From assembly GCA_913009315.1 (NCBI GenBank), contig CAJVZA010000076.1, positions 1 through 6,098 of the forward strand: a DNA stretch of 6,098 nucleotides. Direction: 5' to 3'. Within the stretch, counting starts at the first letter, position 1. Every line of letters starts with the position of its first letter. The position numbers and the translations under genes were made by a program. This DNA comes from an uncultured Hippea sp. GTDB taxonomy: Bacteria; Campylobacterota_A; Desulfurellia; JAADFJ01. Below are positions 731 to 6,098 of this stretch, in pieces. The notes under the pieces are model-generated. The model saw only the letters and a list, made by a program, of their open reading frames with translations, had not been told where the DNA came from and did not search any database.

Positions 731-1420
731 TCAAGACCTTGCGCTATGTATTGCAGCAACGCCCCCGAGAATTCGATCGTAACAAACATTCGAAAATCCT
801 ACATCTCTCAAAATATCCGAAAGTCCTTCGGGAGCCGGAAACTTCATTACAGTTTGAGGAAGATAGTAGTATGCAAAATGATGTTTTGATATTTTGTTGC
901 CTATATATGGAAGAATCTTGAGAAAATAGAATTCGAATATACTTCTCCATAAAATATTCTTGATATGACTAAACTCAAGGATGAGCAGAACCCCGTCATT
1001 TTTAAGAACTCTTTTCATCTCACGCAGCGCCTTTTTCCTTTCAGGTATATTTCTCAGTCCAAATGAAATAGTTACAGCGTCGAAAACATTATCGGCAAAC
1101 GGAAGATACTCCGCCTGGGCATTTATAAACTGAATATTGTCATCTTTATCTTTTCGCTTTGCCATTTTAAGCATAGACAATGAAATATCCGCACCGACAA
1201 TTAAGGAGTTGAAAGATTTGGAAATTTCAAGTGCTACATCTGCAGTACCGGTTGCCAGATCAAGAATTCTTCCTGCATCACCCGGTATCTTATCGATTAA
1301 GCGTTTCCGCCAAAGATGGTCGATTCCGAGACTAAGCAGATGGTTAAGCTTATCATAATTCGGAGATATTTGTGAAAACATATTCTCAATAGCTTTGTTT
1401 TCATTAGACAGACTTTTCAT
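731..1420 (-). CDS. ubiE: Demethylmenaquinone / ubiquinone biosynthesis C-methyltransferase UbiE (MenG)
   Basis: This cytoplasmic or membrane-associated SAM-dependent methyltransferase adds the ring C-methyl group in quinone synthesis; in a menaquinone-only organism it converts demethylmenaquinone to menaquinone. The 229-residue product matches the length of MenG/UbiE proteins (roughly 230-250). Visible family marks are the N-terminal MFSQISPNYDKLNHLLS (14-30), the SAM-binding motif I ILDLATGTADVAL (52-64), the acidic SAM contact in GADIS (76-80), AQAEYLPFADNVFDAVTISFG (101-121, ending in the family signature FGLRN at 120-124), LEF (148-150) and the C-terminal GGVAAIH (219-225). Motif I has Ala where many members have Gly (GTAD instead of GTGD). 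The ATG at 1418-1420 gives the expected N-terminus but has no Shine-Dalgarno; a promoter-like pair lies 8 bases upstream. The gene is divergent from the hydrolase-dnaE unit and is followed by repeat copy A. Whether the substrate is demethylmenaquinone or a ubiquinone precursor cannot be read from the sequence, though nothing here suggests ubiquinone. Confidence 0.94.
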   Translation of the reverse strand: MKSLSNENKAIENMFSQISPNYDKLNHLLSLGIDHLWRKRLIDKIPGDAGRILDLATGTADVALEISKSFNSLIVGADISLSMLKMAKRKDKDDNIQFINAQAEYLPFADNVFDAVTISFGLRNIPERKKALREMKRVLKNDGVLLILEFSHIKNILWRSIFEFYFLKILPYIGNKISKHHFAYYYLPQTVMKFPAPEGLSDILRDVGFSNVCYDRILGGVAAIHSARS

Positions 1421-1468: not shown

Positions 1469-1496
1469 ATTATGAGACCGCTCTGCAATAAGCAGA
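1469..1496 (+). repeat. Dispersed repeat, copy B (partial, leader segment only)
   Basis: These 28 bases align without gaps to the first 28 bases of copy C (5972-5999) with 23 identities, including TATGAGACC and CAATAAGCAGA. A small CTGC/GCAG stem with AATAA loop (1483-1495) is kept, as in copy C. The similarity stops after about 1500, and neither the 40-base core nor the long palindrome is present. It lies in the spacer between ubiE and the hydrolase gene, just upstream of the ubiE -35. It looks like a truncated or eroded copy, or a solo end of the element. Confidence 0.55.
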
Positions 1497-1596: not shown

Positions 1597-2526
1597 ATGC
1601 GCTATACAAAATATATAATTTTGATAATCGCTTTGATTTCTATACCGGCGTTCGGATATCAACATGCAAGTAATATCTATTCAAATTCTAAGATCGTTGT
1701 TTCATACGACAATTTTTTTTACAAGGTAAAGCATGGAGATTCACTTAACAGCATTGCAAAGCGTTTTAAATTAACTGTCGGTAACCTGAAAAGCATCAAT
1801 CGCATCAAAGAAAATTATATCAGAGCCGGTGATACTCTGATTATAGCCAAACCGGGTAGAAAAAATCTTTATATCCTCCGGAAAAGTATAAATTCATCTA
1901 TATTGGCATATACAAAAAGTTACATAGTCAAAAAAGGTGATACTCTTTATTTTATATCGAGACGATTTTCAACCAATGTAGCGTTTCTTAAAAAATTTAA
2001 TCATATTGGAAGGGAACCGCTCAAAATAGGTCGGAAATTGCTTGTACCAGGAAAATCTTTTGTAAGTTACCGGTTTGTTCCTGTTGAAAAGCTTATGCGC
2101 AAAATGAGAATCCGGCTTGTACGGCACGATAAACTGCATCTTTTTTTGAGTTCTCGTTACAAAGTTGTGAGGATAGCTGAAAGATATTTAGGATCGCCTT
2201 ACAAATTCGGAGGTGAATCATTTAAGACAGGAATCGATTGCTCGGCGTTTGTAATGAAGGTATTCAGAAAAATCAATATAAGACTCCCGAGAACTACCTG
2301 GGGTCAACATAAATACGGTATAAAAATCCCTCTAAGCAGCATTAGAGTCGGAGATCTGGTTTTTTTTAATACCCGTAGAGGACCCCACAGCCATGTCGGT
2401 ATCTATATCGGACATAACAAATTTATACATGCATCCTCAGGCAGAGTACACGATGTAACCATCTCAAGGTTGGCAGGATTTTACAAAAGACATTTTAATC
2501 ACGCTGTACGTGTAATAAAACATTGA
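1597..2526 (+). CDS. Secreted peptidoglycan hydrolase with two LysM domains and a C-terminal NlpC/P60 (C40) peptidase domain
   Basis: Predicted periplasmic cell-wall endopeptidase of 309 residues that binds glycan through LysM domains and cleaves stem peptides, typically at D-Glu/meso-diaminopimelate bonds or cross-links in this family. Residues 1-20 (MRYTKYIILIIALISIPAFG) form a signal peptide with no lipobox Cys. LysM1 spans about 41-84 (YKVKHGDSLNSIAKRF), and LysM2 about 108-151 (YIVKKGDTLYFISRRF, ending KIGRKLLVPG). After a basic linker comes NlpC/P60 (about 185-307): GIDCSAF with catalytic Cys215, HSHVGIYIG with His266, and FIHAS with His278. The 51- and 12-residue spacings equal those of the Cys-His-His triad in E. 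coli MepS/Spr, so the enzyme is predicted active. The protein is very rich in Lys and Arg. ATG at 1597 is the first start after an in-frame TAG at 1582 and gives the basic signal-peptide N-region; no Shine-Dalgarno precedes it. Its stop overlaps the dnaE start. The exact bond cleaved cannot be told from sequence. Confidence 0.92.
   Translation: MRYTKYIILIIALISIPAFGYQHASNIYSNSKIVVSYDNFFYKVKHGDSLNSIAKRFKLTVGNLKSINRIKENYIRAGDTLIIAKPGRKNLYILRKSINSSILAYTKSYIVKKGDTLYFISRRFSTNVAFLKKFNHIGREPLKIGRKLLVPGKSFVSYRFVPVEKLMRKMRIRLVRHDKLHLFLSSRYKVVRIAERYLGSPYKFGGESFKTGIDCSAFVMKVFRKINIRLPRTTWGQHKYGIKIPLSSIRVGDLVFFNTRRGPHSHVGIYIGHNKFIHASSGRVHDVTISRLAGFYKRHFNHAVRVIKH
2523..2526 (+). other. TTGA stop/start overlap joining the hydrolase gene to dnaE
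   Basis: The hydrolase stop TGA (2524-2526) overlaps the TTG (2523-2525) that starts dnaE in the next frame. TTG is the only usable start: an in-frame TAA lies at 2496-2498, the codons between contain no ATG or GTG, and the very next residues are the conserved DnaE N-terminus (FVHLHNHTEYSLLDG). The preceding bases (GTAATAAAACA) contain no Shine-Dalgarno. Initiation therefore probably depends on ribosomes finishing the hydrolase, that is, translational coupling. Confidence 0.85.
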
Positions 2527-5500
2527 CAAAGTTTGTCCATCTTCATAATCATACCGAATACAGTCTTTTGGACGGTTCTGTTAAAATCAAAGATCTAATC
2601 AAAAAGCTTAAGTCAAGCGGAATGGACAGTTGTGCCATAACCGATCATGGCAACATGTTCGGAGCCCTGGAATTCTACAAAAATATGAAAGCGAACGGCC
2701 TTAAGCCAATTATAGGCTCTGAGATGTACCTAACGCCCGATCATTCAAAAAAGATTAGAGGACAGGAAGGATTTCATCATATTATCCTTCTGGCAAAAAA
2801 TGAGGTCGGATATCACAATCTTATGAAATTATCGGGAAGAAGTTTTACAGAAGGTTTCTACTATAAACCGAGAATTGATAAAAAGCAGCTTGCAGACTGC
2901 GCTGAGGGTCTTATGGCCGGTTCGGCATGTCTGCAAGGTGAGATTGCAAAAAACATTCGCTTCGGCAGATACGATGAAGCTAAAAATACGGTTCACTCGT
3001 ATAAAGAAATTTTCGGAAAGGATAATTTTTATATAGAGATCATGCGGCACAATTTGTCTGAACAGGATCGAATCAATCCGGAACTCATAAAACTTGCCGG
3101 TGAAACAAACACTCCGCTGGTTGCAACCAATGATTGTCATTTTCTTGAAAAAGAAAACAGCATAGCTCATGATGCTCTTTTATGCATTCAAACGGGAAAA
3201 GTAGTATCTGATAGAGAACGTCTGAGAATGGATTCGGATCAGTTCTATGTAAAAACTGCCGAAGAGATGCTGGCAGCATTCGGCGATATCAAAGAAGCTG
3301 TTACAAATAGTGAGTATATCGCAGATATGACCGATCTAAATTTAAATCTTGGCAATCCCATTCCTCCGCGCTATCCGTTTGTGGAGAATGATAAACAGGG
3401 AAGCTATTTGAGAAAATTGGCTGTTGACGGTCTTGAAAAAAGATTCAATGAAGATTTGATAGATGCGGATCAAAAGATCATCTATCAGAAGCGTCTGGAA
3501 TATGAGCTTACAGTTATTGAAAAAATGAAGTTTCCGGGCTATTTTCTGATAGTTTGGGATTTTATACATTATGCAAAAACGCACGATATACCGGTTGGAC
3601 CGGGCAGGGGTTCTGCTGCCGGTTCTCTTGTCGCATACGCATTGTCAATTACAGATATTGATCCCATAAAGTATAAGCTTTTGTTCGAACGGTTTTTAAA
3701 TCCCGAACGTGTTTCGATGCCGGATATTGATGTCGACATATCAAATGATAAACGACAGCAGGTGATAGATTATGTAGTCAAAAAATACGGAGCTGATAAA
3801 ACTGCTCAGGTTATTACATTTGGAACCATGAAAGCAAAAGGGGTAATCAGGGATGTAGGCAGAGTACTCAGTATACCATACAGCGATGTGGACAAGATTG
3901 CAAAACTTGTTCCGGACACTCTGGACATAACATTGGAAACCGCAGCAAAAGAGAATAACGTTTTAAAAAAAAGAATAGCTGATGATCCTGCTGTAGCTCA
4001 AATTTATAATATAGCAAAGGTTCTTGAAGGTCTGAAACGCCATGCTTCTACGCACGCTGCCGGAATCGTTATTTCGGATGAACCGCTTGAAGAAAAAGTT
4101 CCGCTATATAAGTCCCCGAATGAGCAGATGGCTGTTGTTCAATACAGCAAAGAATATCTGGAGGACATAAACCTTATAAAATTCGATTTTTTAGGCTTAA
4201 AAACATTAATGGTAATAGAGATTGCCGTACGATTTATTCATGAAAATGAGCCTGATTTCAATATTTCTAAAATTCCTTTAGATAATGAAAAGACGTATAA
4301 AAATATGTCTGAAGGGCATACGCTTGGCATGTTCCAGCTTGAATCGTCGGGAATGCAGGATATCGTTAGACATCTTGATCCAAATAATATCAATGATGTA
4401 GTTGCATTGGTGGCACTTTTCAGACCGGGTCCGTTAGGAAGCGGGATGGTCAAGGATTTTATTGAGAGAAAAAAAGGGAAGCAGGCTGTAAAATATTCTC
4501 TTCCCGAGTTAAAGGATATTCTGAAAGAAACATACGGGGTTATTCTATACCAGGAACAAGTGATGCAAATTACTATGAAACTGGCCGGTTACAGCGCAGG
4601 AGAGGCTGATATTTTGAGACGCGCAATCGGAAAGAAAAAGCCTGAGATTGTGGCAAATGAAAAGATTCCATTTGTGAAAAGGGCGGTTGAGAGAGGAATA
4701 AGAAAGCGGCAGGCAGAAGAGATATATGATCTTATGGCATACTTTGCAGGATACGGATTCAATAAATCGCATTCTGCAGCATATGGTCTTATTGCTTATC
4801 AAACCGCTTATCTAAAAACCAATTATCCTGTCGAATTTATGTCAGCCCTTTTAAGTTCCGATCAAGATAATACGACAAAAATTACTAAATACATTGACGA
4901 GTGCGAAAGAATGGGAATTCTGGTTTTGCCGCCGGATGTGAATTTAAGTGATGTAAGTTTTTCGCCTTCCGGCTCTAACCAGATTCGATTTGGTCTTGGA
5001 GCCGTAAAAAATGTTGGCAATGCTGCAATACACTCTATTTTAGAAGAGCGCAAAAACAGTGCTTATAAAGATTTTTATGATTTTATAAGCAGAATTGATA
5101 TGCGAAAATGTAATAAGAAGGTTCTGGAAAGTCTAATAAAAGTTGGAGCATTCGATCAACTGGAGAAAAATCGTATGAAGCTGCTTGAAAATCTTCCTGT
5201 TTTGATCGAATGGGCAATCTCCAAAAAAAACAACACAACCGGCATGGCATCGCTGTTTGGTGAATCAGACACATTCTCTCAGGGGCCTGCATTAATTAGT
5301 GTTGCTATGCCTTCTGATAAACAAATTTTCTTGTGGGAGAACGAACTGCTCGGATTTTTTCTTTCCGGAAATCCGCTATCCGACTATGAGAGTGTCGCAA
5401 AAGCAATAACAGAGATATCGGATCCTGAAAATGCGATAATTTCAGGAGTTATAACGGATATTTCAGAAAAGACAACAAAAAAACGTACCAAAATGGCATA

Positions 5501-5969
5501 TATCAAAATCCATACCACATTTGGTGCTGTTTCATGCGTAGTTTTTCCACACTTATATGCCAAAATTGAATCAAAATTTCAGATTGGCGATCCTGCCGTC
5601 GTTTTTGGCCATATGGAAGAAGATCAGAGTAAAGAGATAAGATCCTCCGGGATTATCAGCATTGAAGAAGCATTAGAAATTATAAAAAAAATTGCAATAG
5701 ACATCGAATATGAGATGATAAATGAACAGTTTTTGTCTCGGATAGATAATGTTTTTAGTAATTGGCCTGGTGATTTTCCGCTTTTTATGAAAATAAAACA
5801 AGCTAAAAAGAGTGTCATCTTAAAAACAGGCAGCGAATTCCGCTTTAAATTAAATTTGGAATCACTTAAATATCTCTGTGATAATTTTCAGATTGCGCTT
5901 AAAGTTGAAAATAATCAGAAAAAAAGATCATTTCCCCGGTTTTCAGGAAATCCTCAAAAAGAATTCTGA
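2523..5969 (+). CDS. dnaE: DNA polymerase III alpha subunit (replicative polymerase)
   Basis: Catalytic subunit of the replicative DNA polymerase III holoenzyme, acting at the fork with clamp and clamp loader. At 1148 residues it is close to E. coli DnaE (1160), complete and unbroken. The PHP domain (from residue 4) keeps all nine metal-ligand positions known from active PHP domains: H8, H10, D17, H42, E67, H86, C136, D204 and H206. E. coli DnaE has lost some of these, so this enzyme may carry its own 3'-5' proofreading. The polymerase core has GPGRGSAAGSL (359-369), the catalytic aspartates D401 and D403 in PDIDVDIS, and D555 in KFDFLGL, at the same numbers as in E. coli. RPGPLGSGMV (634-643) and NKSHSAAYG (747-755) follow, then a helix-hairpin-helix (about 850-877), a clamp-binding-like segment MASLFG (908-913, Met where Gln is usual), an OB fold (about 971-1048) and a C-terminal tail. 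It starts at TTG, coupled to the hydrolase gene; repeat copy C follows the stop. Confidence 0.98.
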   Translation: MTKFVHLHNHTEYSLLDGSVKIKDLIKKLKSSGMDSCAITDHGNMFGALEFYKNMKANGLKPIIGSEMYLTPDHSKKIRGQEGFHHIILLAKNEVGYHNLMKLSGRSFTEGFYYKPRIDKKQLADCAEGLMAGSACLQGEIAKNIRFGRYDEAKNTVHSYKEIFGKDNFYIEIMRHNLSEQDRINPELIKLAGETNTPLVATNDCHFLEKENSIAHDALLCIQTGKVVSDRERLRMDSDQFYVKTAEEMLAAFGDIKEAVTNSEYIADMTDLNLNLGNPIPPRYPFVENDKQGSYLRKLAVDGLEKRFNEDLIDADQKIIYQKRLEYELTVIEKMKFPGYFLIVWDFIHYAKTHDIPVGPGRGSAAGSLVAYALSITDIDPIKYKLLFERFLNPERVSMPDIDVDISNDKRQQVIDYVVKKYGADKTAQVITFGTMKAKGVIRDVGRVLSIPYSDVDKIAKLVPDTLDITLETAAKENNVLKKRIADDPAVAQIYNIAKVLEGLKRHASTHAAGIVISDEPLEEKVPLYKSPNEQMAVVQYSKEYLEDINLIKFDFLGLKTLMVIEIAVRFIHENEPDFNISKIPLDNEKTYKNMSEGHTLGMFQLESSGMQDIVRHLDPNNINDVVALVALFRPGPLGSGMVKDFIERKKGKQAVKYSLPELKDILKETYGVILYQEQVMQITMKLAGYSAGEADILRRAIGKKKPEIVANEKIPFVKRAVERGIRKRQAEEIYDLMAYFAGYGFNKSHSAAYGLIAYQTAYLKTNYPVEFMSALLSSDQDNTTKITKYIDECERMGILVLPPDVNLSDVSFSPSGSNQIRFGLGAVKNVGNAAIHSILEERKNSAYKDFYDFISRIDMRKCNKKVLESLIKVGAFDQLEKNRMKLLENLPVLIEWAISKKNNTTGMASLFGESDTFSQGPALISVAMPSDKQIFLWENELLGFFLSGNPLSDYESVAKAITEISDPENAIISGVITDISEKTTKKRTKMAYIKIHTTFGAVSCVVFPHLYAKIESKFQIGDPAVVFGHMEEDQSKEIRSSGIISIEEALEIIKKIAIDIEYEMINEQFLSRIDNVFSNWPGDFPLFMKIKQAKKSVILKTGSEFRFKLNLESLKYLCDNFQIALKVENNQKKRSFPRFSGNPQKEF

Positions 5970-5971
5970 CA

Positions 5972-6098
5972 ATAATGAGACCACTGCACAATAAGCAGAT
6001 TCACAGCTTTTTATGAGGTTTTCTATAGACAAGGCAAACTTCTGAAGGACTAACGGGTTAATTCAAAGAAGTTTAACGAAGTATATGGGAAACCTCAT
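5972..6098 (+). repeat. Dispersed repeat, copy C, just downstream of dnaE (runs off the window)
   Basis: It starts two bases after the dnaE TGA and continues to the right edge, so its true end is unknown. It matches copy A in the opposite genomic orientation, with the 40-base core 6032-6071 differing once from A. The leader 5972-5999 is also found in copy B. Its parts are ATGAGACCACTGCACAATAA, a small CTGC/GCAG stem (5984-5998), ATTCACAGC with a T-run, then the 86-base imperfect palindrome. There is no coding potential. It is in the same orientation relative to dnaE as copy A is to ubiE. Confidence 0.88.
6013..6098. repeat. 86-base imperfect palindrome within repeat copy C
   Basis: The sequence is nearly self-complementary about a centre at 6055/6056. 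Outer arms begin ATGAGGTTTTC (6013) and end GGGAAACCTCAT (6098). Middle arms AAACTTCT (6036-6043) and AGAAGTTT (6067-6074) pair perfectly. Inner arms GGACTAAC (6047-6054) and GTTAATTC (6057-6064) flank a GG centre with one C-A mismatch and one G-T pair. In copy A the corresponding inner base is T, which restores the pair. Transcribed, it would fold into a long hairpin and might terminate or protect the dnaE mRNA; as DNA it could be a cruciform or transposase substrate. Confidence 0.8.

Follow-up and report, generated by a model that had tools for sequence, protein, structure and literature searches.

A probable MITE family with IS5-related termini, enriched at gene 3' ends, in an uncultured Hippea lineage

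Results

The window, by which we mean the whole 6,098-nt stretch of DNA analyzed here, is all of contig C76 of the 1.74-Mb, 96-contig draft genome of an uncultured Hippea sp. (G000). Positions 1 to 384 encode the C-terminal portion of a protein that bears a JDVT-CTERM sorting signal (NF033191). A ubiE-type methyltransferase gene (731 to 1420, minus strand; PF01209, E=6e-62) precedes copy A of the repeat under study (720 to 598, minus strand), and dnaE, for DNA polymerase III alpha (2523 to 5969, plus strand; PF07733, PF17657, and PF02811), precedes copy C (5972 to 6098, plus strand). In a common core, AGGCAAACTTCTGAAGGAYTAACGGGTTAATTCAAAGAAG, the two copies match at 39 of 40 bases. They start 10 bases past the ubiE stop and 2 bases past the dnaE stop, beyond the native stops of both genes, and are not of the stop-supplying type described below. 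A first-pass annotation had reported the copies, their core, and their distances from the stops, all of which we confirmed. Its coordinates were right, but the element proved to be longer, given that copy C is cut by the contig end and copy A has decayed. A third and older fragment, copy B, is also present.

Copy C opens with a target-site copy, ATAAT (5972 to 5976, plus strand); the sister genome G001 has TGACAATAAT after dnaE and then no element. The left terminal inverted repeat (GAGACCACTGCACAATAAGCAGATTCACAG...) follows at 5977 to 6011 (plus strand), and its 21-bp terminus is repeated genome-wide; complete copies carry an inverted match to it at their other end. The left half of the interior occupies 6012 to 6098 (plus strand); complete copies read on as AAAGCCCGCAGGGAAG... 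for about 146 bp more, where the inverted terminus closes them. Copy C is only 127 bp long because contig C76 ends inside the element.

Copy A, an older and diverged copy, covers 565 to 720 on the minus strand and is 84% identical to copy C over 598 to 720. Its left terminus lies at 715 to 681, next to a target-like ATCAT (720 to 716). The resemblance extends past 598 (AAAGTCCGCATGAAGCTAAAGAAAGGG) into a decayed, 3'-truncated right half whose boundary near 565 is approximate, and a search of copy A for a right terminus found none. Copy B (1469 to 1496, plus strand; ATTATGAGACCGCTCTGCAATAAGCAGA) is an old terminus fragment between ubiE and a LysM/NlpC gene, recognized as a 29-nt repeat 83% identical to 5971 to 5999; it is common to G001, where it is better preserved.

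The first-pass annotation had proposed a genome search recording copy number and stop distance. When this was run, the 127-bp query gave 59 matches in G000 (best E 1e-61), and the 21-bp terminus GAGACCACTGCACAATAAGCA occurred in 136 copies at up to 3 mismatches versus 0 for a reversed-pattern control, which places the relationship between the copies beyond chance. The sister genome held 122 termini with a genus-adjusted pattern (controls, 0), and a search of 58 further genomes outside the genus did not find the MITE. A full element measures 273 bp including its flanking 5-mers, with a body of about 263 bp, terminal inverted repeats of about 35 bp (GAGACCACTGCACAATAAGCA...), and a 5-bp target duplication, ATNAT. 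In the one full copy checked, no ORF of at least 30 aa lay wholly inside. Termini could be paired into 83 elements over both genomes; 35 of these were two-terminus hairpins of 44 to 55 bp, and the other size classes were 154 to 226, 257 to 275, and 299 to 581 bp. The elements are multicopy and within the 500-bp size range of MITEs, mostly 44 to 275 bp and up to about 460 bp with a nested insert. Some of the largest hold a second, nested MITE with AGGGCAACTCTATTAATTC ends. Pairwise identity among full copies was 73 to 99%, a spread consistent with several waves of insertion. Besides C76, contigs C18, C40, and C73 end inside an element, and C13, C53, C64, and C66 start inside one.

Identical 5-mers stood on both sides of 29 of the 83 pairs, and all were ATNAT (ATAAT, 16; ATTAT, 12; ATGAT, 1). 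In the remaining 54 pairs the flanking 5-mers differed, owing either to decay or to halves having been wrongly paired. At ATNAT sites, a 3-bp TNA duplication with T/A inside the element is inseparable from a 5-bp one; we favor 5 bp, from the ATATA ends of the Aliarcobacter element described below. The joined flanks of elements were then compared with G001 and a third genus genome, G002. At C43:9262-9524 in G000, a MITE splits a gene for formate dehydrogenase alpha; in G001 this gene is uninterrupted and contains one ATAAT. The G001 sites were also empty for C21:14049-14463, an insertion just past an apparent tRNA gene, and for C59:3224 and C1:41989. These empty orthologous sites demonstrate recent transposition. 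A 49-bp hairpin on a TAA stop at C51:10256 in G000 is missing in G001, and a 52-bp hairpin in G001 is missing in G000; therefore, the short forms move or have moved. Presence and absence of elements between the two genomes run in both directions. Two insertions had no exact fit (CATAG/CTAAG at C51 and a 6-bp ATTAAT in G001). The window locus itself is 93.5% identical in G001, where copies A and C are both missing.

In G001, dnaE adjoins a tryptophanase-like gene, tnaA; the tnaA of G000 is on a different contig (C42:15639), next to nhaA, the names of both genes being read from translations. The right half of copy C was sought via tnaA and was not found there, tnaA being elsewhere in G000. This synteny break near window position 6098 possibly reflects recombination between MITE copies.

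Contig C15 of G000 carries a truncated transposase of 291 aa, comprising DUF772 and the start of a DDE domain, with the MITE terminus GAGACCACTGCACAGTAAACC upstream. Among plasmid records, the nearest complete relative of this transposase comes from Aliarcobacter cibarius. It shows 56% identity over 281 aa, carries an IS5-family annotation, and scores above the NCBIfam IS5_4 cut-off; the element encoding it has the ends GAGACCACTGCA and GAGCCCACTGCACAA and is flanked on both sides by ATATA. Because the terminus flanks the C15 transposase and the ends of the Aliarcobacter relative match, the element is, judged by its sequence, an IS5-related MITE. A search of the three genus genomes, which are incomplete drafts, revealed no intact transposase bearing the MITE terminus, and an intact IS copy may have been lost or may be missing from these drafts. 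Searches of the other available genomes of the phylum for the transposase, and of viral contigs for the transposase and terminus, returned nothing. Most PF01609 transposases of G000, G001, and G002 are without the GAGACC terminus.

Placement relative to genes was assessed with a simple hexamer-based gene caller, which reproduced the window's genes. Over both genomes, 183 elements gave 260 gene-facing sides, and 2,175 noncoding ATNAT sites served as background. A gene 3' end lay within 20 bp of 51 of the 260 sides versus 201 of the 2,175 background sites (odds ratio, 2.4; p=2e-6), and a gene 5' end lay within 20 bp of 7 of the 260 versus 312 of the 2,175 (odds ratio, 0.17); some insertions are common to both genomes, and these counts are not fully independent. 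The earlier suggestion of a dispersed family near gene ends is borne out by these figures. Copies, about a hundred in each genome, were mostly intergenic, and gene-interrupting elements were rare; the caller splits interrupted genes, as at C43, and its tally of no elements within genes is therefore too low.

Distances to the stop clustered at +1 (n=13), -2 (n=7), and -18 (n=11), together 31 of the 51 near-stop cases. The +1 cluster is the TAA within an ATAAT target, the -2 cluster is a TGA formed from the target T and the terminus GA, and the -18 cluster is a TAA inside the terminus. The further claim that copies point the same way as the gene they follow did not survive the addition of the second genome. 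A weak trend in G000 alone (26/36 versus 15/30) fell to p=0.21 once G001 was added (left ends facing the gene end, 46:27; right ends, 29:28), and within 20 bp the ratios were 17:2 for left and 9:2 for right ends (p=0.61); we dropped the orientation rule.

A full copy was predicted to fold at -116.8 kcal/mol (z, -15) as a three-way fold-back, and hairpin copies were predicted to fold at -33 to -39 kcal/mol. In an alignment of 15 full copies, which are related by descent so that the counts are not independent, 23 of 94 stem pairs had changed on both sides, compared with a shuffled mean of 10.1 and 2 to 7 in slid controls. The compensatory changes reached inner stems and not the termini alone (alignment columns 40-60/113-133 and 142-158/237-253), and those of the interior exceed what a plain model of MITE decay would give. 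The two strands folded equally on average (-103.1 versus -102.3), the plus strand being more stable in 8 of 15 copies. This balance speaks for a palindrome at the DNA level, or for hairpin-templated correction, rather than for a transcript; a strand-specific RNA reading was rejected for this reason. We found no intrinsic terminator (hairpin plus U-tract) in the element at copy C, and hairpin copies run on into ATNAT, not into U-tracts. Rfam covariance models gave no match in the repeats and only sub-threshold matches elsewhere in the window.

Discussion

Our findings indicate, with a probability of roughly 0.92, that the repeat is a MITE, a non-autonomous DNA transposon that makes 5-bp ATNAT duplications, has moved recently, and would be mobilized in trans by an IS5-family transposase. 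The elements have terminal inverted repeats and a target-site duplication, carry no transposase gene, have moved between sites, and have termini in common with an IS5-family element. One of the alternatives in the first-pass annotation, a MITE that tolerates insertion in 3' untranslated regions, was the right one. The family is new, and prokaryotic MITEs as a kind are already known.

We infer from the common termini that an IS5-family transposase with the same terminus would act in trans on the MITE ends. As the sequence shows, the ATNAT target often brings a TAA stop (in ATAAT), and the terminal repeats supply a stop in two of the three frames, one at the T|GA junction and the other as a TAA 16 to 18 bases in. 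Stops supplied by the element could make a landing at or near a gene end tolerable, with the gene call then ending at the element, and selection would remove insertions beside start codons or within genes. We hypothesize that this combination of tolerance and selection produces the 3'-end preference, largely because the target and element ends hold stops and insertions elsewhere are more harmful. It offers a simple, testable reason for an apparent tie to gene ends without a regulatory role.

We considered that the repeat could instead be a mobile 3'-UTR cassette kept for terminating or stabilizing the mRNA of the preceding gene. Its overrepresentation at up to 20 bp from stops, its very stable fold, and the excess of compensatory stem changes are all in keeping with such a role, but no orientation rule holds, the strands fold equally well, as those of a DNA palindrome would, and copy C has no U-tract terminator of the element. 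Stops in the target and terminus also account for most of the near-stop cases, and orthologous gene ends occur without copies, all of which leaves a terminating or stabilizing role unsupported and makes the cassette unlikely. The 44- to 55-bp hairpins in both genomes resemble REP/BIME units, which would suggest a family of REP-like palindromes mobilized by a RAYT (Y1 transposase). A strict REP element is nonetheless very improbable, given that REP elements are recognized by having no target duplication; here we found target duplications, empty sites, long terminal inverted repeats, longer elements ending in identical termini, and an IS5 transposase that has this terminus as well.

A different DDE transposase, for example, an intact one of the IS1634 type, could move the MITE, with the IS5 terminus match being incidental. 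Intact IS1634-family genes are present in the genome, and the IS1634 family makes 5- to 6-bp duplications. The IS1634-type gene ends are without the GAGACC terminus, whereas this terminus flanks the local IS5 gene and both ends of the Aliarcobacter relative, and we give the idea little credence. The window and several other contigs break off within the element, which could point to an assembly artifact of repeated contig ends. This reading is refuted by the many complete copies that lie within contigs, with unique flanks and empty orthologous sites, and the same family is found in the sister genome; its likelihood is close to nil.

As an IS5-related MITE, the element resembles the prokaryotic MITEs reviewed in PMC10969869, such as the 235-bp Chunjie of Geobacter uraniireducens, in its size of less than 500 bp, its terminal inverted repeats and its target repeats, and in having tens of mostly intergenic copies, many partial ones, and a stable fold-back. 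It differs from them in sequence, in terminus, and in its large class of 49- to 55-bp elements that are nearly terminus only. QMITE2 of Coxiella burnetii lies mainly in the 3' untranslated regions of ORFs and in intergenic sequence, and its insertions are reported to overlap C termini and supply stop codons (PMC5896051). Our family is likewise enriched at gene 3' ends and supplies stops; the QMITE2 duplications are variable at 7 to 11 nt, whereas those found here are 5 bp with an ATNAT preference, and the stops are explained by target and terminus. The IS5-family element of Aliarcobacter cibarius pACIB (NCBIfam NF033581) is similar in its terminus, GAGACCACTGCA, and its A+T-rich 5-bp duplication (ATATA), but the MITE encodes no transposase and the IS copy in G000 is a truncated one. 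REP/BIME palindromes are likewise short, extragenic hairpins, although they are without the target duplications, DDE-type termini, and larger relatives with the same ends. A literature search joining MITEs with Desulfurellales found no paper, and the match found for MITEs with Epsilonproteobacteria concerns Thiomargarita.

This family provides an IS5-linked MITE in an uncultured Campylobacterota lineage for which two close genomes allow insertions and empty sites to be compared, and its 49- to 55-bp mobile hairpins are very small transposable units. We speculate, with considerable doubt, that the element is built to land without harm and to preserve its structure: these terminus-only hairpins would be complete mobile units whose stop-bearing termini cap genes cleanly, and the fold-back interior of longer copies would be kept by compensatory changes, its folded (cruciform or hairpin) form mattering for transposition or host tolerance.

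Other repeats also occur in these genomes. In G000, a second and smaller MITE-like family of about 162 bp, with ends AGGGCAACTCTATTAATTC and GGGCACTTCTGTTAATTC, is nested in several copies of the first (the region of L030 1558-1720, as well as L023, L026, L028, L033, and L039). It is also dispersed on its own, with 24 to 29 matches in the G000 stretches examined. In G001, another dispersed repeat with many copies was detected through the left flank of C8:7692 (query part 693-825) and is present on contigs C89, C86, C83, C16, C53, C29, C21, C17, and C84.
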